A stretch of 64,000 nucleotides of DNA, from NCBI GenBank assembly GCA_033030425.1, contig JAUFSD010000013.1, positions 1,469,697 through 1,533,696 of the forward strand. The letters run 5' to 3'. The first letter of the stretch is position 1. Each line of letters opens with the position of its first letter. The stretch is from Verpa conica (Eukaryota > Ascomycota > Pezizomycetes > Pezizales > Morchellaceae). This document shows, one piece after another, positions 34,100-62,694 of the stretch. Below the pieces are notes generated by a model. The model was not told where the DNA came from, searched no databases, and saw only the letters and a program-made list of their open reading frames with translations. Made by a program: the position numbers and the translations under genes.

Positions 34100-35188
34100 A
34101 TGGCATCATCTTCTGGCCCAGCAGCCCATGACACCAATGACACCGCCGATACAACCACCGTACCCCGCGCGATCCCTATGCCACCTATCACAGAATCATT
34201 TTGCCTCCTCTCCCCCTCTACCCTTCCTAAACTGGAGAACATTTCGGACAATTTCATATCTCTCAAGTACCCTGTTGCACGGCTCGGTAACCAGCGTGAC
34301 AGTGCGGTGGATTTACACCCTGGCGGAGGGGGAATCTCCCGGAGTAACACGATGGAACTTGAGGACGCAGTGGGGACCTATGAGGTGCTGCTAGCGTTGA
34401 ATAACCTGAGTGAGTTAACAGAGGAGAATCTCTGGGGAAAGGCGGATGATACTCATGTTAATATTGTGTGCGCTATGTCCCCATCCATCACGAGCCCCCG
34501 TCAACGTATCTGATCCACACGCATGTGTAGTTATGTCCAGAGTCTCGAAGAAAAGTTTATAAAGGTACTTCGGCTTCTTATTTTCGGCTGACGTATTGCA
34601 CTAACCCCTCCCAGGCTGTTCTTACAGCCACCGTACCTGAATCACTTAATGCTGAAGTCTTAGAGCATTGCGATAATAAATTAACCACTGGCCTCCGCCT
34701 CCGGTACGACTACCGCAGCCCTAAACACGTCATCCTCTTCGTCGGCATGCCCTACCTCGGTAGCTCCCCTATATCCCCTACCACCAAAGACTTTCTCACG
34801 CTGCCTAATTATCGCGGTTTGGAGGCTGGTTCTTTAGATAGCGGGGTTCGTGTCTGGCAGGCGTGGCACATCCTCTTCAGCAATAGTACCTGCCTCGCTC
34901 CTCCTACCCCTGCAAAACTAACACATACCAGGTAGAATCGCACTCTTTAAATCCCGATCGGACCAATTCTCGTCCTCCGCCCCACTATTTCCATTCCAAC
35001 AGCGTCTCGGTGCAATTCTCACCCTCGCCCAGCTTCTCGGTAATCTCTTCTTATATGAAAGCACCGCTCTCTCCGCTTTCAGGGAGTCTGTCAATAAGCT
35101 ACAGGACCGAATCCTTTATAATAAGGATAAGCTCCTCAAAATGCAGGCGGAGCCCTATTATAGGGCGAAAATGCGTGTCAAGCCTTAG
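34100..35188 (+). CDS. Four-exon gene, unknown function
   Basis: Exons 34100-34467, 34531-34564, 34615-34885 and 34932-35188 join in phase to 309 aa. Introns are 63, 50 and 46 bp; the last has a canonical ACTAAC branch site. The ATG 34100 opens MASSSGPAAHD; upstream in-frame residues look non-coding. The product is soluble, with a Thr/Pro-rich N terminus, VQSLEEKFIKAV, LRLRYDYRSPKHVILFVGMP and a C-terminal amphipathic helix region (AFRESVNKLQDRILYNKDKL). I recognise no family. Its stop codon lies about 65 bp before the CTCCCGGNCGGGAG palindromes. Confidence 0.65.
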
Positions 35189-35254
35189 GGCTATGGCTAG
35201 AAACTCGCTTTTTTACTTAAAGCAGTCCTCTGACTCCCGCCATAGAGTGGTCGA

Positions 35255-35393
35255 CTCCCGGCCGGGAGTAACACGGTGTGGCTCCCGGTCGGGAGCATAG
35301 AACCCACCCGAGTAGTCTTTTTATACTTTTTACTGCTAGGCTACTCCCGGACGGGAGTCCTCTGCTGCTGCTTTGCCCACTCCCGGGCGGGAG
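35255..35393. repeat. Four CTCCCGGNCGGGAG palindromes
   Basis: Fourteen-base palindromes at 35255, 35282, 35344 and 35380. The central base is C, T, A and G respectively, while both arms are invariant. A half-site ACTCCCGCC lies at about 35232. Intervals are 27, 62 and 36 bp. The flank block at 35396 follows immediately, as it does after the TGTCG palindromes at 38216. Confidence 0.85.
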
Positions 35394-35395
35394 TA

Positions 35396-35912
35396 CCCCA
35401 TATAGACCCCCCCTGCGCTGCAGCCCTACCCCCCACCTGCCTGTGTGCTTGCTGCAGACGCTGCTGTGGCGTTGCTTCTGCGCAGCCGTGGTTTTCCGCT
35501 GGGAGCGAGATTTTGGCGACTTTGTAGTCCCCTGTGTATTTTTATTTCTAGAGAGGGGCAATCAGACAAGGTCTTGGCGGTCATAAGCTCTCTCTTTATG
35601 TACCTGGAGATGGTCGGGTACTTCCTCGCTTGCCTCCCGCCTGCGCGCCGCTGCAGGTTGCCCGATCACCTTGAGCTCTCGACCACGGCGCGCAATGCAG
35701 CGCTGTATATTGACTTGCACGACGCCTTGCTACCCCCCTACCTGCCTGGAGTTTCTCTCTGATGTCTCTATGGCATCGCCTGCTTGCCTGCTTGCTTGCT
35801 TATTGCCTGCCTGGTTGCGCTGTCGCACGAGTCACGAGATATCACTCGGTCCATGTCACGATTTCGATTCTTGAGTGGGGGGGTGCAGTCTTTTTTCACT
35901 CTGGAGACTGAC
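35396..35912. repeat. Flank block D, copy 1
   Basis: About 520 bp, closely similar to 38240-38763. Shared landmarks in order: CCCATATAGAC, CTGCGCTGCAGCCCTACCCC, ATTTCTAGAGAGG, GGCGGTCATAAGCTCTCTCT, CACCTTGAGCTCT, ATATCACTCGGTCCATGTCA. It opens directly after a palindrome cluster in both places. No coding potential is evident. Confidence 0.85.
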
Positions 35913-36790
35913 TGATAGTAGAGAAGATGTCTTGAGATCTTTTATATGCACTTCCTCTTGTCCAGGTACTTTTGTCTCGGCACCTGGACCTCTCTCCTGG
36001 CCACGGCGCAACTCTCGTTCGTGACTTCGCTGACTGCTGACAAGCTGCGCCCTACCCCTACCCCCCTACCCCAGGCACCCCACGTCTGCCCCAGCACCGC
36101 CTGACTGCCTGCAGTCGCTGTGGCGCTGCTCCTAGGCTTGCTTGCTTGCTGCGCTTGGTGGGGGGGAGCGCGACTGCGCGAATCATGAGAAATCACTCGG
36201 TTTTTGTCGCGGTTTCGTTTCTTGAGTGAGAGAGTGCAGTCCTTTTTCACAGTGGGACCTAGCTGACAGTGGTCTAAATGTCCTGTAACTTCTCTTTTCT
36301 ACTTTTGCTTGTCCAGGTACTTCTCTCTCGGCACCCGGACCTCGGCCCTCGCCACGGTACGGTTCTCGTCTAGGCCTTCGCTGACTGCTGACAACCTGCG
36401 CCCTACCCCCTACCCCCCTGCGCCCTAAACCCCTGCCCTAGGCACCCCACGTCTGCCCCAGCACCGCTTGCCTGCTTGCTTGCTGCGCTTGGTGGTGGGG
36501 AGGCGACTGCGCGAGTCATGGAAAATCACTCGGTTTTTGTCGCGGTTTCGTTTTTTGAGTAGGGGAGTGCAGTCTGTTTTCTTTGTGGGACCTTGCTGAC
36601 AGTGGAGTTGATGTCCTGTGACTTCTCTTCTTTACTTTTGCCTGTCCAGGTACTTCTCTCTCGGCGCCTGGACGTCGACCCTCGCCACGGCACGGTTCCC
36701 ACCTAGGCGTTCGCTGACTGCCAGCAACCTGCGCCCTGCCCCTACCCCTACCCCCACCCCCCCTGCGCCAGAGACCCCATGTCTGCCCTA
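35842..36790. repeat. Tandem ~335-bp repeats
   Basis: Units are marked by TCACTCGG at 35842, 36193 and 36526. Each carries GTCGCGGTTTCG, a GAGTGCAGTC box, TGTCCAGGTACTT with TCTCGG, CGCTGACTGCTGACAA and a CTTGCTTGC run. The right end of block D belongs to the same family. More copies are at 55.9-56.7 kb. These look like a satellite or minisatellite-type family; no genes are seen. Confidence 0.8.
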
Positions 36791-36963
36791 GCACCCCCTA
36801 CCTGCCTGCTTGCTGTTAAAGTGGGGAGAAGAGTATATCTTCTATGTATTGGATGGGGGAAGGAGTATAGAGTACTTGCGCTGATAAAGCTTCTTGTAGT
36901 ATTACAAGAAAGGCGTTTTCGTATAATTTCTATACTCTTCAGTCAGCGAAGGGGGGGTATATA

Positions 36964-37006
36964 TTATACCCTTTTTGCCTGGTCTGTAGCCTGGGTTAGG
37001 GTCAAC
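36964..37006. repeat. 43-bp leader of palindrome array 1
   Basis: Begins TTATACCCTTTTTGC and ends GGGTTAGGGTCAAC, immediately before the first palindrome. It differs by about three bases from 39351-39393, which precedes array 2. It is exactly one array period long but lacks the palindrome. Confidence 0.85.
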
Positions 37007-38216
37007 TGTCGCTCAACAAAAAGACCAGTGTTGGCGTCAATAATAGCTGTCGGGCAACAGGTTCTCTCTCTCTATGTCTGTAGCTTTCTGTCGCTCGACC
37101 GTACTGGACCTGCGCTGGGCTGCTGCTCTCTGTAAAGCGACAAGAACCTCTCCTCCCAGAAGTGTCAGACATTGTTGCTCGACAGCTATTTGTGGCTTTG
37201 GGGGCTGCGGATTGGTGTCGAGCGACAAGAACCTCTTCCCCCCAGAGGTGTCAGATATTGTTGCCCGACAGCTATCTGGGTCTTTGCTTCATCTGTCTGC
37301 TTGTCGCACAACAGCTTTTTGTGGCATTAGGGGCTGTAGATTACTGTCGGGCCACAACATATAGAGACTTCTCTGGCACCTGCTTTCTGTCGAGCGACAA
37401 GAACCTCTTCCCCACAGAAGTGTCAGATATTGTCGCCCGACAGCTATATGGCTTCTTCTGTGGCCTGCCTGACTGTTGCTCAACAGCAATTGGGGACTTT
37501 GCTGCTTGTACCTAGTTGTTGCACGACAGCTTTTATGGCCTTGGGGGGCTGCAGATTACTGTCGAGCGACAAGAACCTCTTCCCTCCAGAGGTGTCAGAT
37601 ATTGTCGCCCGACAGCTATCTGGGTCTTTGCTGGATATGGGTAATTGTCGTCCGACAGCTATATGGCTTCTGCTGTGGCCTGCCTGACTGTCGCACGCCA
37701 GCAATTGGGGACTTTGCTGCCTGTACCTGGTTGTCGCACGACGGCTTTTATGGCTTTAGGAGGCTGCAGGTTACTGTCGAGCGACAACATATGGGGATAT
37801 CTCTGGCACTTGCTTCTCGTCGAGCGACAGCAATTGCAGCCCCCTGGGATTACAGTTACTTGTTGCACGACAGCTATTCAGGCCTTTGCTGGGTACGGGT
37901 AATTGTCGCCCGACAGGTATATGACTTCTCTTGTGGCCTGCCTGACTGTCGCTCGACAGCAATTGGGGACTTTGTTGCTTGTACCTAGTTGTCGCCCGAC
38001 AGCTATCTGGGCCTTTGCTAGGCGCAGCTGTTTGTCGCTCGACAGCCTTTCTTGACAACTCTGGCACTTGCTTCTTGTCGGGCGACAGGTATTGCAGCCC
38101 CCTGGGACCTACAGTAACCTGTCACACGACAGAAAATGGACCACTCTAGCCCCACACCTAAACTGTCGCACGACGGGTTTTCTTTACCTGGCGCTGCAGC
38201 TTACTGTTGCTCGACA
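37007..38216. repeat. Palindrome array 1: 29 copies of TGTCGNNCGACA at 43-bp period
   Basis: Starts at 37007, 37048, 37089, 37131, 37173, 37216, 37259 and onward in steps of exactly 43 bp to 38076 (21 consecutive identical steps), then 38120, 38164 and 38205. The 12-base repeat is palindromic with a variable central pair (CT, AG, CC, GG, CA, TC). At least 12 copies are perfect and most others differ at one or two bases. Spacers are 31 bp and fall into about seven sequence families that recur in shuffled order. There is no open reading frame of note across it. The geometry is CRISPR-like, but the repeat is far shorter than any CRISPR repeat and no cas-like gene is present. Four helical turns are about 42 bp, so all sites lie on nearly the same DNA face. 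Confidence 0.92.
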
Positions 38217-38239
38217 CCCATAGACCCCCCATATGGACT

Positions 38240-38763
38240 CCCCATATAGACTCCCCTGCGCTGCAGCCCTACCCCCACCTGCCTGGGCGCCTGCTGCAGA
38301 CGTCGCTGTGACGTTGCTTCGGCGCAGCGCTGGGACCTGCTTGATCCACGGCGCGATCCATGGTGGTTTTCGGCTGGGAGCGAGGTTTTGGCGACTTTTG
38401 TAGTCTCTTGTGTATCTTTATTTCTAGAGAGGGACAATCAGACAGTGTCTTGGCGGTCATAAGCTCTCTCTCTATGTACCTGGACATTGTCGAGTACTTC
38501 CTCGCTTGCCTCTCGCCTGCGCGCTGCTGCAGGTTGCTCAATCACCTTGAGCTCTGGACCACGGCGCGCGGTGCAGTACTGCATATTGACCTGCTCGACG
38601 CCTTGCAGCTTGCCTAGCTACCTGGGGCCTGTTCCTGGCGTCGCTGCCTGCTTGTCTGCCTGCTTGCCTGCTGCTGCGCAGTCCCACGAGTCACGAGATA
38701 TCACTCGGTCCATGTCACGATTTCAATTCTTGAGTGGGGGAGTGCAGTCTTTTTTCACTCTAT
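38240..38763. repeat. Flank block D, copy 2
   Basis: Copy of 35396-35912, separated from the last palindrome of array 1 (38205-38216) by only ~24 bp that read like a partial duplication of its own start (ATAGACCCCCC, ATATGGACTCC). It ends with TCACTCGG (38701) and GAGTGCAGTC as in copy 1. Confidence 0.85.
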
Positions 38764-39350
38764 ACTCCGCACCGTGGCTAGACCAAAATCGTGGCTAGGC
38801 GACAACACAACAACCACAAAGAAAGTATTTATAATTAAAGAAGTATAGACTAAAGAGCACCTGGAGAATCGATTGCAATAAAAAAAAGGCGAATACAGGG
38901 GGTTGTGGCTGTGTTGCTATGGGGCTGCTACATGGGACTTTTGTAGTGTATATCTGGTCATGACTTTTGCGTTATTCTACACCAAAAACAGGGGACTTTT
39001 GCGTTAGTCTAGCGAATATCTCAGTACTAGTAAATATACTATAATGGCGGAAAAGTCACAGTTAGTCCTTGTATGTCGTGGGGTTTTCCGAGCGCTGAAA
39101 GCAGGGATCGATAGAGAAAAGGAAGGCGAATCGACCCATACATTTAGAATCGCTAAACTCCATGATTTTTACATCCATATATCCAGTAGAAGGGGTGGTC
39201 ATTTTCCGTGGGGGAGCGCCAAGCGCTGCCGAGACCAGCAGCACCTGCCTTATCTGGCAGCGCCACCAAGCACGCCATAATTAAAAGCGACTTTATAGAT
39301 GGCGCCATAATTAAAAGCGACTCTATAGACGCATGCACAAATCTGACCAA
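38764..39350. other. Gap between block D and array 2
   Basis: No gene recognised; the frame 39044-39280 has no motif. A 28-bp direct repeat built on GCGCCATAATTAAAAGCGACT occurs twice at about 39279-39330. The leader of array 2 begins at 39351. Confidence 0.5.
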
Positions 39351-39393
39351 TTATACCCTTTTTTGCTGGTCTGTGGCCTGGGTTAGGGTCAAC
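39351..39393. repeat. 43-bp leader of palindrome array 2
   Basis: Near-identical to 36964-37006 and in the same position relative to the first palindrome (39394). Confidence 0.85.
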
Positions 39394-41501
39394 TGTCGCT
39401 CGACAAAAAGACCGGAATTGGCGTCGATAAAAGCTGTCGGACGACAGATTCTCTCTCCCTTTCCCTGCAGTCTTCTGTCGCTCGACTACGCTAGACCTAG
39501 GCTGTGCTATTGTTATCTGTCGCACGACAAGAATCCCCCCACTTGAGAGATGCAGAAGTTGTCGCCCGACAGCCCTAGGGGCTTTTTCGGCTGCTACTTC
39601 CTGTCGGGCGACAAGGATCTCCTCCCACCAGAGGTGTCAAATATTGTCGCCCGACAGCTATCCAAGCCTTTGGTGGGTATGATTACTTGTCGCCCGACAG
39701 CAATACCACATTTCCTGCGGCCCAGCTGCCTGTCGCACGATAGCTTCACTGACGCGGCGGTTAGGAGTTAGGGTAGCTAACTGGCTAACTGTTGTCCGAG
39801 AATATGTCGGACAACAGTTAGCCAGTTAGCTACCACGGCATGAAATTATCGAACGATACAATATTCTTTTAGTTTCTAATTTGTTTCGTTACACGATTGT
39901 TCTTTTATAACCATTTTAATAATATCTTATCGCTCGACAGCTAGTAATCAGTGGATCTCAGAAAATCTTGTCGCACGACATGGTGACCTCTCATAGCATA
40001 AAAACAATTCATCGCACAACTATTGTATAGAGCTAATAAGCTGCTTATTTCCGTCGTACGATACTTCAGAACCCAGTCTATTAATCATTTCTTATCGCTC
40101 GACAACCTCTAGTATTAATATTTACTCTTAGGTTGTCGTTCGATATGCTTTGAGAATATATTATATGGACTAGAATGTCGTTCGATACTATTTATAGTTA
40201 TTATGAATTGTTTTCATTGTCGCTCGAGAAATATTAATATAAAACCATACGTGAATTTTGTCGCCCGACATCTTCTCTGTATGGGTATTTCCTATCATTC
40301 TATCGTACGATAAGATTCCCCTCTACTCATTCGCTATTCATATTATCATTCGACAATGGTATCGTTAGTTCCGTTTCTCCATTTTCGTCGCTCGATCATA
40401 CCTTTCTTATTTAGTTCTTCGAAACCATATCGTTCGACAGACATTATCCGTTTCCTCACTTCATAGACTCTATCGCTCGATAGCATTTTGCTTATTTCTT
40501 CCCCCTATAAATCTATCGTTCGACATGTTTTCATCTTCTTTCCATCCTCCTATCCCGTCGCTCGACAAGCTTTATTCTATTTCCTCTTCTTCTACCTTGT
40601 CGCTCGATAGCACTATCTCCTTTTTCCTCATTTTTTTCCTTGTCGCTCGATAGCTTTGCTCCCATTTATTCTTCTTGATCTTTATCGCTTAACAGTATTT
40701 TTCTTTCTTCCCTTTCTCTCATCTTGTCGCTCGATAACATTTTTCTCTCTTTCCTCTTCTTTTGTTTTGTCGCTCGATACTCTTTGTTCTAATCCCTCCT
40801 CTTTAATTTTATCGCTCGACAAGTTTTTTCTCTAATTCCTATCTTACATCTTGTCGCTCGACAGGTCTTTGTTCTAATTCCTTCTCTTAGATTTTATCGC
40901 TCGACAAGTTTTTGTTCTAATTCCTTTCTTACATCTTGTTGCTCGACAGGTTTCTGTTTTATTTCCTCTTCTTCATTTTTATCGCTCGACAAGTTTTTGT
41001 TACAATTCCTCCTTTTAGATTTTATCGCTCGACAGTATTTTCCTCTCATTCCTTTCTTACATCTTGTCGCTCGACAGGTTTCTGTTTTATTTCCCCTTCT
41101 TCAATTTTATCGCTCGACAGGTTTTCTTCTCTTTTGCTTTTCTTCTATCTCATCGCTCGACAGTATCTTCCTCTTATTTTCTTCTTCTATTTTGTCGCTC
41201 GATAGCTTCTTATCCTATTTTCTCTCCTTCGCTTTCATCGCCCGACAGCTTTTCCTCTGTTTTCCCTCTTTCAATTTCATCGCTCGACAGCTTTTTTCGC
41301 TCCCTCGGCGCTCCTGATTTTGTCGCTCGACAGCTTTTTTCGCTGCCTCGGCACTCCTGACTTTGTCGCTCGACAGCTTTTTTCGCTACCCCAGCAATCC
41401 TGATTCTGTCGCTCGACAGCTTTCCCCACCCACCCACACATTTCTTTTATCGCCCGACAGGATTTAAAATACCATGACCCTCCTGATTCTGTCGCTCGAC
41501 A
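39394..41501. repeat. Palindrome array 2: ~49 copies of T(G/A)TCGNNCGA(C/T)A at 41-43 bp
   Basis: Positions start 39394, 39435, 39476, 39518, 39560, 39602, 39645, 39688, 39731. After a large hairpin they continue 39847, (39888 degenerate), 39928, 39969, 40010, 40052 and so on to 41490 at 41-43 bp. The first steps (41, 41, 42, 42) repeat those of array 1. From ~39.85 kb the spacers turn AT-rich and the outer palindrome bases often become TATCG or CGATA; from ~40.5 kb the spacers are pyrimidine-rich. The inner TCG-NN-CGA is kept almost throughout. Spacers show little similarity to one another after the first nine. The last palindrome ends about 155 bp before the start codon at 41656. Confidence 0.9.
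39772..39834. repeat. Perfect 28-bp-arm hairpin inside array 2
   Basis: Left arm 39772-39799 (GGTAGCTAACTGGCTAACTG then TTGTCCGA) is the exact complement of right arm 39807-39834, with loop GAATATG. It includes the word TGTCGGACAACA, related to the array palindrome, and sits where the unit after 39731 is expected. Confidence 0.9.
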
Positions 41502-41655: not shown

Positions 41656-42864
41656 ATGAGCCAGCTTTCGGTTACGTATTCAGAGGTCCCGACCGAGCGA
41701 GATCCCCCTGAGATCGCAGCTCGCTTCGGAGATCGCGAGCGGAGGCGAGAGCGGTTTCTATCAAACTACCAACAGTACCATCCTACGGAGAATGTAATGG
41801 CACTAGCAAACGATGTGTTCGAGTTCAAGGAGACTACCGCGACTTTACTTCAGGAGTGGCGGTCAGTGGACAGGACTGTCTCGAATATAGAGAGGACGAT
41901 TGCGAGGCAGGAGTCTTTATTGCAAAGTTTATCTACCGGACAGGCGAATTTGGATACCAACCTCGCTAATAGCATTACTCATGTTACGTCCGTCCTTAGC
42001 CAGATGAATAGTATCTATTCAAAGATGGGAGATCTTGACCGTTCAGTTCTGCAAGCCAACACTAGTCTAACTACTGTTGATCGTCAGGCTACTGTCCTCA
42101 AAACTTTAGAAGCCAATACACAGAAATTACTAGAGATCAGTGGGGGGTTAGTGATCCGTATAAACGGCCTCGAGGATCATGCCGGTAGTTCTGAAGAGCG
42201 GATGGAAGAGCTACGGACTACAATATCGTCGGTCGGGACAAAGATCGGAGGGTTAGAGGAGCACATCGACAGGTTCGATGGGCATATGAATGGGTTGGTG
42301 CGGAGAATGGGAGGGCTAGAAGAGTATATGGATAGGTTCGATCAGAGGATGGGAGGACTTGATGAGCATATAAACAAGCTCGATGGGCGTATGGATGGGT
42401 TGGAGGGGAGGATGGGGGGTCTAGAGAAGCATATGGGCAACCTCGATGGGCGTATGGATGGGATGGAGGGGAGGATGGGGGGTCTAGAGAAGCATATGGG
42501 CAACCTCGATGGGCGTATGCATGGGATGGAGGGGAGGATGGGGGGTCTAGAGAAGCATATGGGCAACCTCGAAGGGCGTATGGATGGGTTGGAGGGGAGG
42601 ATGGGGGATCTAGAGAAGCATATGGGCAACCTCGATGGGCGTATGGATGGGTTGGAGGGGAGGATGGGGGATCTAGAGAAGCATATGGGCAACCTCGATG
42701 GGCGTTTGAATGGGATGGAGGGGAGTATGGAAAAATTAAATAATCGTATGGAGACGCTAGAAAGCAGTGTTGCTTCCCTCAAGCAGTCTTTTGATCAGTT
42801 TGGACCCAGTCAGATGATGCTCTCGTCGAAACTAGACCTGCTTCTTGAGAGATTCCCGGGATGA
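41656..42864 (+). CDS. Repeat coiled-coil protein, unknown function
   Basis: An intronless 402-aa frame from ATG 41656. Residues 1-50 are charged (GDRERRRERF). Residues ~50-200 are heptad-rich with SNIERTIARQ and similar. Residues ~200-375 consist of a 21-aa unit (three heptads) GRMDGLEGRMGGLEKHMGNLD repeated about six times almost exactly, after earlier divergent units. The C terminus returns to ordinary coiled coil. No signal, membrane segment or enzymatic motif. A long parallel coiled coil that oligomerises is the likely structure. It lies immediately downstream of palindrome array 2, whose CT-rich end must contain its promoter, so regulation through the palindromes is possible. Confidence 0.75.
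   Translation: MSQLSVTYSEVPTERDPPEIAARFGDRERRRERFLSNYQQYHPTENVMALANDVFEFKETTATLLQEWRSVDRTVSNIERTIARQESLLQSLSTGQANLDTNLANSITHVTSVLSQMNSIYSKMGDLDRSVLQANTSLTTVDRQATVLKTLEANTQKLLEISGGLVIRINGLEDHAGSSEERMEELRTTISSVGTKIGGLEEHIDRFDGHMNGLVRRMGGLEEYMDRFDQRMGGLDEHINKLDGRMDGLEGRMGGLEKHMGNLDGRMDGMEGRMGGLEKHMGNLDGRMHGMEGRMGGLEKHMGNLEGRMDGLEGRMGDLEKHMGNLDGRMDGLEGRMGDLEKHMGNLDGRLNGMEGSMEKLNNRMETLESSVASLKQSFDQFGPSQMMLSSKLDLLLERFPG
42380..42720 (+). repeat. 63-bp coding tandem repeat
   Basis: About five and a half units of 63 bp with the words GGTCTAGAGAAGCATATGGG and CAACCTCGATGGGCGTATGG. Units differ at only a few positions, so homogenisation is recent and length variation is expected. Confidence 0.9.
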
Positions 42865-56760: not shown

Positions 56761-57195
56761 CGCTGGCCCTGCGCAAGGGTGAACCTCCAGGTGGGAAACC
56801 CCCCCAAAACCCGCGGCACCCCCCGTTACCCCGTGGAACCGCGTTTTTTTTGTGGTTCGCGCGAGGTTCGCGCGAGGTTAGTTTAGGGTTAGTGATTAAG
56901 AATTTATTATTAACTCCAGCTAGTAGGATAAGTACAAAGTATACACTAAGTATCACCCCTGCGATTGCGCAGAGAGAAGAGACAAGTAATTAGAGAAGCA
57001 GTAAGACAGGAGAGTAGTACGGCCAGCTGCAATCCACAAAGCAAAGAAGCTTGGCGATACGCTACCAACTCAAGCTACCACCACCAAGTCACCAGTCCTC
57101 CCCTCCACTAAGGGCAAGGTACCAAGTACAGAATACCCAGTACCAAGCACCATGCGGCCCCAGTCCTCCACACCACCCCATCAATACTAGTGTCG
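56761..57195. other. Flank of LINE 3' end
   Basis: Includes the doubled phrase GGTTCGCGCGAGGTTCGCGC near 56860 and a telomere-like TTTAGGGTTAG near 56881. The CTACCACCACC-rich stretch 57050-57190 has no coding support. Confidence 0.5.
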
Positions 57196-57659
57196 TCAAA
57201 GTAAAAGAGAACAAAACTCATAAGAGACCAGCAAAATAAAAGAAATAAAGAAATAAAAGAAATAGAGAAAATAAATAGAAGCATCCATAGTAACAAAAAA
57301 ACACAAAGACGACACAAGCACTAATCGAATAAAAAGATCAATCACTCCCGTTATTAGCAGCAGCCACACGACCAGCAACAAACATATCAGCCATTCTCTT
57401 ACTCCACTCAGCCAATATATCATACGGCACGCGCCTGGGATATTGGTAAGATAATCAATCACGGTGTATTTGGTGTCAGGCGGGTGTAACACCTTGTCGA
57501 GTTCCATCAGCTCCTTTTCTTCCTCCGTCAAAACCCCAGTCAAGATACCACTCATAGCCATACAACGAACATGTCCTCTATCCCACCGAACCCCACACAG
57601 ACAAACTCTTCCAAACCCGTAGAGTCCTCGCCTCCAATCCCACAAAGTAGTTTGCTGCT

Positions 57660-60600
57660 TACTGTTCAAAATGCCTAAACCAAAAAAGCACCCTACGGTC
57701 AGCCCCATCTCCACTCCCAGTCAAACAGCAAAAATAAAAAATAAATAAAAAATAAAAAATAAAAAATGGTCTCAAAAACAGTATTAAAAAATAAAAAAAT
57801 AAAATAAAAAAATAAAAAAATAAAAAATAAAAAAAGGTCTCAAAAACAGTATTAAAAAATAAAAAAATGAATAAAAAAATAAAAAAATAAAAAGTAAATA
57901 AGATATTAAACATACCCAGAACGGCAACCATGTCAAGGCCCTCCAGCCTACCCTCCGGCTCCACTATAGCCACCATAGTACCCGTCTTATCATCTCTCTT
58001 CCCCACCACTAAACTCTTCTCTACCGCCAAAAATCCTACCAGCTTTTCCTTCACTTTACCAGCGTCGAGTCCAACAAGCCCCACCGTCTCCTCCCTGAAC
58101 CTCCCATACAGCTTATCATAAGCCAAGTGGCCAACCAGCAATTTCTTGGACCTTCTAGCAGGGAGGGAGCCAACAATATTCCTAAGCGGGTTGCCAGCAT
58201 CCATAGTATAGAGGTGGTGTTGAAAGCTACAGCGTAGATGTTCCATACGAGGCCTGATCTCCAGGACTCCACAGAGGTTGCCTATAAGCTTGGGACGCTT
58301 GGAGGTACCACCAGCCACCCACACCATGCATTCATTCCACGCCAGCTCCAAGGGCTTGAGGAACTTGAAACAGGCACCAGCTTTGACCCAAGCATCGAAG
58401 AGAGGCAGCCCATACTCCATGATCGGTCGTAGGTAGACCTTGAAGAGATTGAGCCTGACTCGAGGAGTCCAAGAGTCTGAGCTCAGCTGGAGGAAACCTT
58501 TGAGCTTAAGGGTCTTCTCAACAATCCTGTCCCGATGGGCGTCAAAGTCTATACCATCACAGGTGACAGGGAAGCCAAGGTAGCGGTAGGTATCAACAAC
58601 TGGCAAAGGACTTCCATAGAGAGAGAGAGGAGTATGCCACCTGTTGTGCATTGTCTTGGTAGTGACAACACCACATTTTGGCACCTTGAAGCGCATGTCA
58701 TGGTCGACAGCCCACCGCTCACATATGTTAAGCAGCACCGTGGCTTTCACCCAATCCCGAGACATGAGAACCCCATCATCTGCAAAGAAGAGGCTAGAAG
58801 GAAGTCCACTGGCATCCTGTACCGTAGCATTGAGCGCCACCACAAGGGAGTTGACAAACTTGTTGAACATGACAGGAGATAGAGGAGAGCCTTGTGGAAT
58901 ACCAACAACCCGTCTATGGGAACCTGAAGAGGCACCATTGACAATCAGGCTGTAAGACATGGAAGTGAACATGAGCTGGACCACCAGCCGCACCAGCAAA
59001 GCTGGCATCCTCGAGCACGCAATTCCTCCACCAGTTTATCCTTACCAACCATATCGTATGCTGCCTCAAGATCAAGAAACACAGCTATTGGAAGAGCTTT
59101 GGTTGCCAGGGAATGGTGGAGAGTCAAGGCATGTGTGAGAGTGGAGTAGCCTTTCCGGAAGCCACCCTGTCCAGCATCAACCGTGTTGAAGGGAAGGGAG
59201 GGATCCTCAAAGCGCCGGTATTATCAGACTCTCAAAAACCCTTCTGAACATTACCAGTATGGAGATAGGTCTTGTGTTGGCGGCTGTGTACGGGAGACTG
59301 GAGTCTTTTCGGATAGGATAGAGAATAGACCTATTCCACCGTTCAGGTGTGGAGCCTGTAAGTATACAGGCTTGGAATAGAAGTGAGAGATCAGTGATGA
59401 AAGAGGTATCCAGTAAGGCTTTCATCTGCAGCGTGAATACCATCCTCGCCACAGGATTTGCTTCCTGGAAACCTAGAAATGAACTTTTTGACCCGCTTCT
59501 CAGACACCATACCTAGAAGTATGCTGGTAATCTCTGCATCATCCATCAGAGGTTCACCACATGGAATGCTGGAATCAGACCCAGAGGCACTGTTTATATC
59601 AGTCGTGGATGTGAAAGAGGGAGTAGAGCTATTGTAGACTTTCTCATACTTGGACTCGCACTCTTCCATGGGTGTACTGTTGTCCATTTCAGATAGCATA
59701 GTTTTCCCAATGGTGGAGGATCTCTGGACTCTTTTGAACAGTCCAATAGCAGAGTCAACATCCGTCGATGTTGAAAGCTTGCCGACCACCTTATCCGGAC
59801 CCCTCCGTTCCACTGTTGGCTTGACAACTCCCAAAACCTCCTCCGATATCGATTGCATCTTCCCCACCAGTAACATGTCCAACATGTCCACATCATATTC
59901 CTCTGACCCTTCCTTCCAATTGCACACATCCTGCAACAAGTCCCAAGAATCCCGAAACAATTTCCCATAGTCTTTTTTCTTCCGTCTCTTTAACCGATTC
60001 TCAGCAGCCAATCCAGCACTGCCCCTCAATCTATTTATCCGAAATCTCAAAACCCCATCATTCCTATCATCCACTTGTCCACCAGTATTACCAGCGCTTA
60101 AAATCCCAACAGCATCAATATCCACTTCCATCATATATGTATGATCGGTATATATTTTCAAATCCTGACAGGAATGGAGAGTGAGGGTACTGTTCACCAT
60201 TACTGGTGCATTTGAGATGAAAGCATGATCTGTTGTCAACTGGATCCTACCATCACCACCACCACCACCAAAACTAGGCGCCATTCTAATAAAATTCCCT
60301 CCTGCTTGCCAACGTTGAAAGACTTGTACTCTGTCTGTAGGACCAACAGGCTTCTGGCCAGGAAACCTGACATTAATGTCTCCAAGAACCAGATCAACTC
60401 CTGGAAGATTGAGTAGATGCTGTTCCATAGCTACTGTTGTCATGGAGGTCGGAGGATAATAGACACCCGCAAAAGAAAACCCTTTCAGCCTCGCCACTAT
60501 CCCATACTGATCACCCACCACACCCAGAACCTGCCCCTTCCACCTGTCTGATGCCAACAAATAAATTCCACCGCTAAACCTCCCTTTAAGATGTCGTTGA

Positions 60601-60791
60601 GCGTCGCCTCGAGTAGAGACCGTCGTCCCAATCACCGCCGTATTTGCCAGCCTGCTAGCATGCTTTGTGTACCAGTGCTCCGCAACAAAAATGAAATCAA
60701 ACCTTTTCTCCAACATCCCCAGAATGTGATAAAACTTCCCGTCCTGCAGGGAGTGCACATTCACATATCCAATTCGAAGATCCATCAACAT
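57660..60791 (-). pseudogene. LINE ORF2: endonuclease and reverse transcriptase, frameshifted
   Basis: The segment 60791-59391 opens with IGYVNVHSLQDGKF and holds exonuclease-endonuclease-phosphatase motifs (AEHWY, GVYYPP, VLGDINVRF, TDHAFIS, TDHTYMMEV). The frame shifts near 59420 to one reading MKALLDTSFITDLSLLFQAC and ANTRPIS. It shifts again near 59205 to DAGQGGFRKGYSTLTHAL and the RT motif A FLDLEAAYD. A third shift near 59010 leads into GIPQGSPLSP (motif B) and FADDG (motif C, usually YADD). From 57660-57900 the frame dissolves into the (TTTTTA)n microsatellite. No RNase H domain is recognised. Confidence 0.85.
57725..57905. repeat. (TAAAAAA)n-type microsatellite
   Basis: TAAAAAAT-rich tract in which a longer phrase beginning GTCTCAAAAACAGTATT occurs twice (about 57763 and 57837), so a ~74-bp segment has been tandemly duplicated. 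It interrupts the C-terminal part of the LINE. Confidence 0.85.
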
Positions 60792-60809
60792 TCTTCAATG
60801 GAGTAATCC

Positions 60810-61020
60810 GAGTCATGACTAGATGAGGATGAAGATAAGGAAGTAGTGGTGGCTTGCGAGAGGGGAACAGAGCGGCGGGACCAGATATTGGTACCACTAC
60901 CGCCAGGTTGACCAGAAGGTGGAGTTTTATTCCCACCACCATCATCGTCGTCGGTAGGAACTTCAATAGGTGGAGGTCGTTGTAGCAAACCATCCATGGC
61001 ACAGTCATTGTCGGAGTCAT
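60810..61020 (-). other. LINE inter-ORF region
   Basis: Ser-rich minus-strand frame (SSSSSSHDSDYSIEEC) between ORF1-like and ORF2. It may be the end of ORF1 in another frame or a spacer. Confidence 0.35.
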
Positions 61021-61044
61021 CTAGCAGTGCAGAGTAGTCAGAGC

Positions 61045-61584
61045 TTACAGTCCATTCAGGAGAGAGGGAATAGCATTACCATTATCAAGTGGACTCGATG
61101 TTTTACTCTGATGTCCTTTATTGTTTTCTCCTGAGTACTTGGTGAACTCCTTACTCCAGCCACGCCTCTCTATCCAATTTGACAAGTAAAGCTTTGTTTT
61201 ACTATTACTCGTGGTGGAAAAGGACTGGGCCAGCCGTCTGATAAATACCCTTCTCAAAGCCTGCTCCTGTGCCTTCCGTCCACCAGCAACCTTACCCTCA
61301 CCCCACTTGTAACTGTCAGGGTTTAAAGGGTCGAAGGAATCCAGTACCATAAGATTTGGATCCTTGCTTAGTTTTGTGGTGACGCTAACCACATGCTTCT
61401 CCATCACAATCATTTCCAGGATAGAGTTATCAATCCAGCTCAGATTCAACACCTGTCGCAGCTTCAGACCCAAAGTATCATGAAATACTTGTTTGAGATT
61501 ACTCAGGTTTTGCCGTTTGAAGCCTTTAACATAGAGATGCTGACAGACCGGTACCGCTTTGATGCTACCTGCTTCCTTTGACAC
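61045..61584 (-). CDS. LINE ORF1-like protein (179 aa, possibly partial)
   Basis: The segment CQHLYVKGFKRQNLSNLKQV, with NLSWIDNSILEMIV and LDSFDPLNPDSY, resembles the nucleic-acid-binding region of ORF1 products of fungal Tad-like LINEs (an RRM-like fold near the pattern G-x-R-x3-LSxLR). It lies directly upstream of the endonuclease ORF in the same direction. The reading frame may begin further upstream through an intron or frame break. Confidence 0.55.
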   Translation of the reverse strand: MSKEAGSIKAVPVCQHLYVKGFKRQNLSNLKQVFHDTLGLKLRQVLNLSWIDNSILEMIVMEKHVVSVTTKLSKDPNLMVLDSFDPLNPDSYKWGEGKVAGGRKAQEQALRRVFIRRLAQSFSTTSNSKTKLYLSNWIERRGWSKEFTKYSGENNKGHQSKTSSPLDNGNAIPSLLNGL

Positions 61585-61777
61585 TTTTGAAACTGGCAGA
61601 GAATTTATAGCGTTGATGGGTCGATTATTATTATTTGGATCTACATACTGTTATTAGCAAGTATAACTTTATTACTAAACTTTATTCCATAGAGCCTACC
61701 GGATTCGTGCTGTAGTATTGGAGAGAAGCTGGCCGCTCGAGCGGATAAGGAAGATACAACGTCCCTTCATGAACCAC

Positions 61778-62694
61778 TTAGCGCTTCAGGAGAAGCGTTC
61801 CTACTATCTTCAAGTAACTCCATAGTAGCTGATGGCCTATCAACAGCTTTTCCTTCCCTTTACTTTCTCTTGACCAACGGGTGGACTTAAATAGCCTTCG
61901 GAACTCGTCCCTACTACCAACTAACTCAGTATTTCCACTATTACCGACAGTAATACCAATAGCTACCCGGCTTGTAGAAGAGGATTGCAGGCTTTCTAGA
62001 GATGACAGTGCTGTGGCAAGTAGTTTCTGCGCCGTGAGTATATCGTTTCTAATGGACTCTAGTTGCAGCCCATGGTATGGTTCCGGCTCGGTACCATTAT
62101 TACTTCTTTGGCCAGCAGGAAGGGGGGTAGTAGAGGCTGAGGGGATATTCTTGGTGGCATTTGATCGTTGGTACTTTGTAGACATACCAACGCCAATACT
62201 GGTAGAGCCACTGAAACTAAGTTTTCTCTTTTTTGTGGGAGGGTTTGTTGATGCTATGGCTAAAGAAATGATTAAATATAAAGATACCATATGAGGAGAT
62301 TGATAGCGGTGAGTTACCATTCGATGCTGGCTCAGATTGCAGCCCATCCTTAATTCTATCAACCTTCTCTTTTCCAATCCTGATGTTCCCCGAACAAAGA
62401 GCTATAAAATCAGTGGTGCTGAGTGTTTTTGTGCACCGCTTCTGGTTGGACCCCTTGGAGGCTCTGATGCTCTTAAGAGACACCATACCACCTGCACAAC
62501 AGATATAGCGGCGGTATCTCTCCCTTTATCATTCGCATTACCAGCATTACTTTTCGAAAAGTTCCAGCCTTGTTCGGTGCCTTTTGGTGGCATTGTGGGC
62601 ATGAAAGATGAATATTATACTGATTGAAAAGTGCATCGGCCAGGAGTAGACGGCCATCCTCCAAGCGTGCAGAGTGAAGTTGTCCCCTACTCAT
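61778..62694 (-). pseudogene. Zinc-finger protein gene, one frame break
   Basis: From 62694 the frame gives GRLLLADALFNQYNIHLSCP with CPQCHQK and, ~28 residues on, LLCRWYGVS. A one-base shift near 62480 is then needed to continue SLKSIRASKGSNQKRCTKTL and FIALCSGNIRIGKEKVDRIK. The Cys pairs suggest a zinc-binding fold near the N terminus. A 70-75-bp intron (GTAACT...CCATAG, about 62250-62322) joins to a part with the nuclear-type signal PTKKRKLSF and a helical region ending at 61778. Family not recognised. It may be a host gene or the 5' part of the LINE ORF1; being next to ORF1 on the same strand favours neither strongly. Confidence 0.4.

Follow-up and report, generated by a model that had tools for sequence, protein, structure and literature searches.

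The question raised by this locus is whether a row of short palindromes held at an almost constant distance is an ordinary tandem repeat or a set of selected sites and, in the latter case, what kind of element carries such a row. The window, that is, the whole stretch of 64,000 nucleotides that was analyzed, is the right end of contig C13 (1,533,696 bases) of an assembly of 45.8 Mb in 25 contigs. All relatives of the arrays described below belong to this one genome, and the units compared are not independent of each other.

Two palindrome arrays with different spacers

Exact matches to the palindrome TGTCGNNCGACA number 27 in the window, compared with a mean of 0.02 in shuffled sequence, which excludes a chance origin of the row. 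Array A (Table 1) contains 29 units with at most two mismatches to TGTCGNNCGACA, 12 of which are exact, so that the 29 copies initially reported hold for degenerate sites but not for identical ones. The intervals are, in order, 41, 41, 42, 42, then 43 bp 21 times, then 44, 44 and 41 bp; this unit-by-unit count bears out the 21 successive intervals of exactly 43 bp that had been noticed. The spacers of this first type are mutually related and common to several chromosome ends (mean best identity 0.932), fall into related families and vary by point change and duplication, with the order of units reshuffled between arrays. Higher-order periodicity is seen at 172, 215 and 258 bp.

The observation behind the original prediction is real, but the interval it covered (37007-38216) misses a second array at 39394-41501. 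The leader and the first 8 units of this array B are 98.9% identical (blastn) to the left end of C16 (L031). Overall, array B consists of nine units, a disturbed stretch and then, from 39928 on, 37 units at intervals of 41-43 bp except one of 83 bp (35 of the 36 intervals in this divergent part being regular). The inverted repeat inside the array ends in a palindrome half-site. The spacers of the divergent part are unlike those of the first type and largely pyrimidine-rich: when 35 of them are compared with 188 others, the mean best identity is 0.521, against 0.495 for shuffled sequences, and a genome-wide match search with the divergent part returns only itself. Two sets of spacers with almost no mutual likeness are combined here with the same palindrome and the same spacing. 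In the divergent part, the core of the site becomes T-x-TCG-N2-CGA-x-A, with G2 and C11 often replaced by A and T, while the CpGs stay.

On the telomere side of array B, 155 bp beyond its last palindrome, is the ATG of an open reading frame for 402 amino acids. The predicted protein contains coiled-coil repeats encoded by 63-bp (21-aa) units, and its matches are mostly of the coiled-coil type. Elsewhere in the genome there are two weaker matches to it; the better one (C2:55410-55646) is an N-terminal relative and covers 79 residues. The search of the genome for site pairs lists no array pair near this C2:55 kb relative, and a gene family with an array in front of each member was rejected for that reason.

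Table 1. Features of the palindrome-bearing region (window coordinates)
Feature	Positions	Strand	Basis
Head type 2, ATTATAGGGCGAAAA..., four CTCCCG-N2-CGGGAG at 35255, 35282, 35344, 35380	35157..35395	+	genome copies
Body following head type 2, with some two 333-bp repeats (36139-36815)	35396..36815	+	repeat scan, blastn
Type 1 leader, 44 bp, ATTATAC...CCTGGGTTAGGGTCAAC, sharp left boundary	36963..37006	+	20 genome copies
Array A, 29 units TGTCG-N2-CGACA at 41-44 bp	37007..38216	+	motif scan and interval count
Common downstream body, starting with CATAGACCCC/CATATAGACTCC repeats, also behind other heads	38217..38760	+	blastn among contig ends, junctions
Type 1 leader, second copy	39350..39393	+	junction reading, boundary comparison
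Array B, first 9 units	39394..39742	+	units and blastn among contig ends
Perfect 28-bp inverted repeat, 7-nt center, inside array B	39772..39834	.	single locus in genome
Array B, remaining units, mostly T[GA]TCG-N2-CGA[CT]A	39847..41501	+	unique in genome
402-aa coiled-coil ORF	41656..42864	+	ORF list, coiled-coil matches, genome search

The arrays as heads of a telomere-oriented element

Palindrome pairs at 41-44 bp, for which a genome scan had been proposed originally, are found almost only near contig ends. The exact palindrome occurs 162 times in the genome compared with 31 occurrences of the reversed control pattern, and among the matches listed (50 of the 162), 46 belong to clusters near contig ends. 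A two-site pattern (41-44 bp apart, first center CT) yields 63 rows and none in the control; 62 of these rows are located at most 28 kb from a contig end, on 15 ends. The leader of the array (type 1) is present in 20 copies in the genome, all of which are within 39 kb of an end, and 18 of which point telomere-ward, the two inward ones being at the right ends of C5 and C20. In the 14 copies fetched, the 40 bp downstream of the leader boundary are 0.91 identical and the 40 bp upstream 0.25; a single pair of upstream flanks out of 91 (L018 and L031, close to the boundary) exceeds an identity of 0.6, and array A and L020 share sequence further upstream of the leader.

The far ends of the arrays are ragged. 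The leaders of L144, L145 and L146 are followed by one to three clear sites only, truncated arrays abut the next head directly in L031 and L033, and the truncated array at the left end of C1 (L016) runs into sequence beside an RNase H ORF. This ORF, a retroelement piece at 1847-3355 of L016, lies just telomere-ward of the array. The array on the C15 right end (L143) breaks off within the spacer of its sixth unit and is followed by telomere repeats up to the contig end. These repeats are an irregular mix of TTAGTTTAGGG and TTTAGTTAGGG type units, and the same mix is seen at the left ends of C2, C3, C6 and C19 (L017, L018, L021 and L034, respectively). The TATA-like sequence ATATAGAC is found at most 61 bp behind the last palindrome in all 6 full type 1 arrays, but not in array B; of the 10 type 2 heads that were checked, 8 contain it.

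Type 2 heads begin with ATTATAGGGCGAAAA, carry up to four CTCCCG-N2-CGGGAG palindromes and continue into the same CATATAGACCCC body. At up to 3 mismatches, 34 copies are found, every one of them oriented telomere-ward and the farthest 70 kb from an end; the palindrome itself occurs 106 times genome-wide (50 of the 106 listed) against once for the control. Among 12 fetched copies of the 34, the start is 0.95 identical and the flank 0.26, with none of 66 pairs above 0.6. In nine of these twelve copies (three deleted, divergent or cut ones being left out), the palindrome arms are slightly better kept than the rest (0.073 vs. 0.096 differences), with CpG columns elsewhere at 0.27. The N2 of this palindrome is GC, which is self-complementary. 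Other upstream sequences precede the body elsewhere in the genome, and because these as well as a second N2 palindrome head stand before the same body, the heads look exchangeable. A possible third head, ATTATACCCTTTTTACCTACC with a GTAATACG-N3-CGTATTAC palindrome, is located at 5816 of L018 (telomere-ward numbering). The only listed ORF of at least 150 aa in 35157-41501 (37476-37988) has no Pfam match, and no coding part for the element was found in this region. The array forms the centromere-proximal head of a subtelomeric element that is present in repeated copies, most of them oriented toward the telomere.

Several other genes and elements are located near the same ends. A LINE on the minus strand of the window (56854-57000 and 57196-62400, RVT_1) looks telomere-targeted because its 3' side adjoins a telomere-repeat remnant, GGTTAGTTTAGGGTTAGT. 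The left ends of both C8 and C9 contain sequences closely matching this LINE. DUF3723 genes are found near two contig ends (50777-53198 of the window and 5085-6770 of L026). Gene content of this kind, which also includes HET and copia-type ORFs, indicates a fungal host, in line with the label of the original prediction. HNH_2 ORFs and ORFs with ankyrin repeats are encoded centromere-ward of the arrays on three ends (L018 4347-6071, L031 4588-5574 and L032 5431-7548).

Site conservation, spacer drift and alternative explanations

Conservation was assessed at 202 sites from 12 arrays, a set that excludes the divergent units of array B. Mutual-best unit pairs with at least 55% identity (552 pairs, which are not independent) were sorted by spacer likeness into four classes, over which the spacer differences per site rise from 0.039 through 0.116 and 0.189 to 0.308. 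Over the same classes, the non-CpG core positions T1, G2, T3 and A10 differ at 0.013, 0.011, 0.005 and 0.011, and the four CpG positions of the site at 0.115, 0.139, 0.175 and 0.113; the CpG positions mutate fast without accumulating change. Six array-by-array comparisons of core and spacer gave P values from 0.0003 to 0.78, three of them below 0.01. The original prediction had named spacers conserved to the same extent as the palindrome as the mark of an ordinary minisatellite, and within this genome the two are far apart (0.039-0.308 for spacers, 0.005-0.013 for the core). The array is no ordinary minisatellite, because the core differs at about 0.01 against up to 0.31 in the spacers and because array B keeps the site amid unrelated spacers.

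Intervals of 41-44 bp account for 188 of 190 in the counted arrays other than the divergent part, a count favored by the acceptance of sites with 3 mismatches only at 40-45 bp from a better site; it excludes the disturbed positions 39790-39847 in array B and the rearranged distal portion of the C3 array (past 7100 in L018, telomere-ward numbering), where intervals such as 17, 30, 47, 84 and 558 bp occur. The two-fold symmetry extends beyond the palindrome, with Y before the site in 200 of 202 units and R after it in 193 of 202. The central N2 is self-complementary in none of the 188 counted units of the first set and in 2 of the 37 divergent units of array B; one exact CG-centered site is present in the omitted stretch of L018, the only one among 164 sites with at most 1 mismatch at the fetched ends. 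The observed/expected ratio of CpG is 0.17 in the first-type spacers (145 units), 1.68 in their palindromes, 0.80 in positions 1-34000 of the window and 0.71-0.85 in the neighboring repeat modules, and the loss is less marked in the divergent spacers of array B (0.53). RIP indices show no uniform rise. Past methylation would be consistent with the CpG loss seen in spacers of the first type.

These data bear unequally on the explanations that can be put forward. Inheritance of both period and palindrome from one ancestral unit, without function, would account for the higher-order periods and related spacer families, which are what ordinary tandem growth produces, but it leaves aside the contrast between core and spacers, the kept site and spacing amid the unrelated spacers of array B, and the retention of CpG in palindromes whose first-type spacers are CpG-poor, and we regard it as quite improbable. 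A transcribed array in which each palindrome folds is very improbable indeed. The array DNA does fold better than dinucleotide shuffles (z of -7.3 and -5.3, 20 shuffles each), and when the control sequences retain the palindromes, 12 of 14 z-scores remain negative, with three lower than -2; however, most of the excess is gone in these controls (z from -3.3 to +0.3, 16 shuffles each), unit order has no consistent effect on folding, and local flanks pair worse than swapped ones (-8.09 vs. -8.78). There is no compensatory pattern; wobble-compatible changes favor opposite strands in the two arrays (51:29 and 11:22), and pairing counts for the flanking pair reveal no Watson-Crick coupling and few paired double changes, so that a DNA site rather than a hairpin is expected. 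Rfam at gathering scores and a tRNA scan gave no match in the window. The suggestion of a CRISPR-like memory is not supported, because the first-type spacers are relatives of each other and the divergent part of array B has no genomic match other than itself; the two common spacer strings tried, two in all, have no exact match in viral contigs.

Two further explanations invoke mobility or exchange. The unit could belong to a selfish subtelomeric satellite that spreads by tandem duplication and by exchange between ends; a nuclease or recombinase would then break or exchange the DNA preferentially at the palindrome, with N2 as the 2-bp overlap. The crossover dinucleotides of serine recombinases are non-self-complementary, as N2 nearly always is here, units are reshuffled between arrays, and linkage is lower across palindromes (0.505) than within spacers (0.666), at unmatched distances. 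Against this possibility, which we hold to be unlikely, the genome yields no match to the serine recombinase profile PF00239 (the control being positive in 10 of 14 genomes), which speaks against the serine-recombinase form of the recombination platform considered earlier; an exact CG-centered site exists, the head type 2 N2 is self-complementary, spacers judged by eye to be chimeric place exchange inside spacers too, and, the units being related by descent, the N2 rule rests on few independent changes. A non-coding telomere-end retroelement, with an RNA ending ...TATAAT-3', reverse transcription primed at the chromosome end and palindromes serving as 3'-UTR hairpins or RT signals, is likewise doubtful. 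It predicts that copies all start with ATTATA, grow outward and end raggedly on the far side, and the 26 fetched heads indeed have one boundary, with the upstream 40 bp 0.25-0.26 identical and one of 157 pairs above 0.6; telomere-ward orientation is the rule for both head types (34/34 for type 2, 18/20 for type 1), truncated arrays run into the next head or into telomere repeats, and possible partners, namely the RNase H ORF and the LINE at the window end, are present at such ends. On the other hand, no coding part of its own is found among the ORFs of the region, a role of the palindromes at the RNA level has little support from the fold controls and covariation, two type 1 heads point inward, and some flanks are related (L018 and L031; array A and L020). 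Mobility is also compatible with a DNA-binding array, so that this explanation competes with the hairpin part more than with the anatomy. A scan of 8 long contig-end ORFs identified one RT, in a separate LINE (L023), and one RNase H (L016); an RT for the element could be supplied by a partner.

Proposed role and relation to known systems

The explanation that we favor, at somewhat better than even probability, is that this is a telomere-oriented repeat element whose head would present phased binding sites to a dimeric DNA-binding protein and serve as an upstream regulatory or silencing array. The number of sites per head ranges from one or a few to about 49. They have the two-fold symmetric form Y-TGTCG-N2-CGACA-R and recur at 41-44 bp, a spacing that is close to four helical turns and would place them on nearly one face of the helix. 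A putative dimeric, sequence-specific protein would occupy each site, and the row might function as a cooperative upstream array at chromosome ends that either activates or silences what lies telomere-ward of it, namely a body without coding function in those full type 1 copies that were read, and the 402-aa ORF behind array B. A row of dimer sites fits because of the two-fold symmetry, the spacing of about four turns, the loss of spacers with the site kept, the Y/R flanks and the lack of RNA-type covariation, and the clustered operator on one helix face is the best supported among the options of the original prediction. The upstream regulatory array would fit the position of the head before a body with the TATA-like ATATAGAC, or 155 bp before the ATG of the ORF, and we lean slightly towards a regulatory role (promoter or silencer) over a purely structural one.

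Some observations run counter to the site reading. Even the most similar units show a difference of 0.115 at the CpG positions of the site, which means that individual sites are free to decay; the CpG loss in spacers is not general, given the ratio in array B, and the type 2 palindromes are barely better kept than their surroundings. Duplication or conversion within an array could keep sites alike without selection, but this leaves the divergent spacers with kept sites unexplained. A broader scheme, in which a non-coding element repeatedly adds itself outward to chromosome ends beside simple-repeat telomeres, with exchangeable heads that each consist of a phased palindrome row for a dimeric factor of their own and precede a shared body, and thereby constitutes a back-up or anchoring system, is a speculative possibility to which we assign a rather low probability. 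Subtelomeres are where many fungi keep fast-changing genes, and to our knowledge their organizers are poorly known. With a precise site and spacing marked by evolution at many ends, the presumed protein should be fishable with one 43-bp probe, and outward growth from a constant start means that strains of a single fungus would allow a test of whether a non-coding repeat is added to chromosome ends.

Such an array is not described in the telomere-motif and subtelomere literature searched, which covered few subscription papers. The pair pattern has no match in viral contigs. In prokaryote genomes it occurs in 105 stretches (80 listed). Seven matches in Burkholderia and Paraburkholderia contain nearly the same pair inside or overlapping reading frames and were taken as chance in coding DNA. 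Most of the 13 others examined are arrays, some short and some long, of the same palindrome with a period of 21, 22 or 41-44 bp and different spacers; we take them to be convergent because the search itself selected for the motif. These bacterial arrays include L043, L078 (Planctomycetaceae MAG), L088 (Treponema MAG) and L106 (Spirochaetaceae MAG), and arrays of the same palindrome are present on many contigs of the Acidobacteriota MAGs OFTM223 and OFTM268 (several of L039-L117).

Among eukaryotic and viral systems, the Family of Repeats bound by EBNA1 of Epstein-Barr virus is a row of palindromic dimer sites with less conserved spacers and 30-bp spacing that functions in plasmid maintenance. 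The fungal array resembles it as a row of palindromes, with a putative dimer and less conserved spacers, and differs in that the viral spacing is 30 bp. HeT-A and TART are telomeric non-LTR retrotransposons, and the hallmark of this group, a constant end, telomere-ward orientation and truncation at the far end, is seen here, with two of 54 heads inward. The head junctions, however, are not set in telomere repeats: telomere-like repeats within 60 bp upstream are found in one of 26 head flanks (L032). The telomeric non-LTR retrotransposons FoTeR and MoTeR, as far as described in the source cited, share with the fungal element confinement to chromosome ends, fixed orientation, ragged truncation and non-coding tandem repeats, but encode RT and sit in telomere repeats (PMC12857005); in the fungal element no RT ORF was found, and its repeats, unlike theirs, are phased palindromes. 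Human TERRA promoters (61-29-37 repeats) are likewise reported to be CpG-bearing subtelomeric tandem repeats upstream of telomere-ward DNA, with two predicted NRF1 sites per 29-bp unit upstream of telomere-ward transcription (PMC6600276). In contrast, the fungal first-type spacers are CpG-poor and do not form a CpG island, and the motif and period are different.

In the way the element would work, the closest analogue is PfSIP2/SPE2 of Plasmodium falciparum. In the account given of that system, 94% of 777 predicted SPE2 sites cluster in subtelomeric domains; each end has on average 18 in TARE2/3, which are mostly separated by 120 bp (PMC2829057). Both systems have many two-part sites in non-coding telomere-associated repeats, in conserved orientation and at roughly regular spacing (PMC2829057), and in both the site is almost confined to the subtelomeres of many ends (62 of 63 rows on 15 ends in the fungus). 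SPE2 differs in being bipartite with a 4-5 bp gap, spaced at 12 or mostly 120 bp and bound by an ApiAP2 protein (PMC2829057), whereas the fungal site is a palindrome with an N2 center repeated at 41-44 bp. The fungal element, which fits none of these families on present tests, is probably best viewed as a subtelomeric binding-site array, a new form of that known class.
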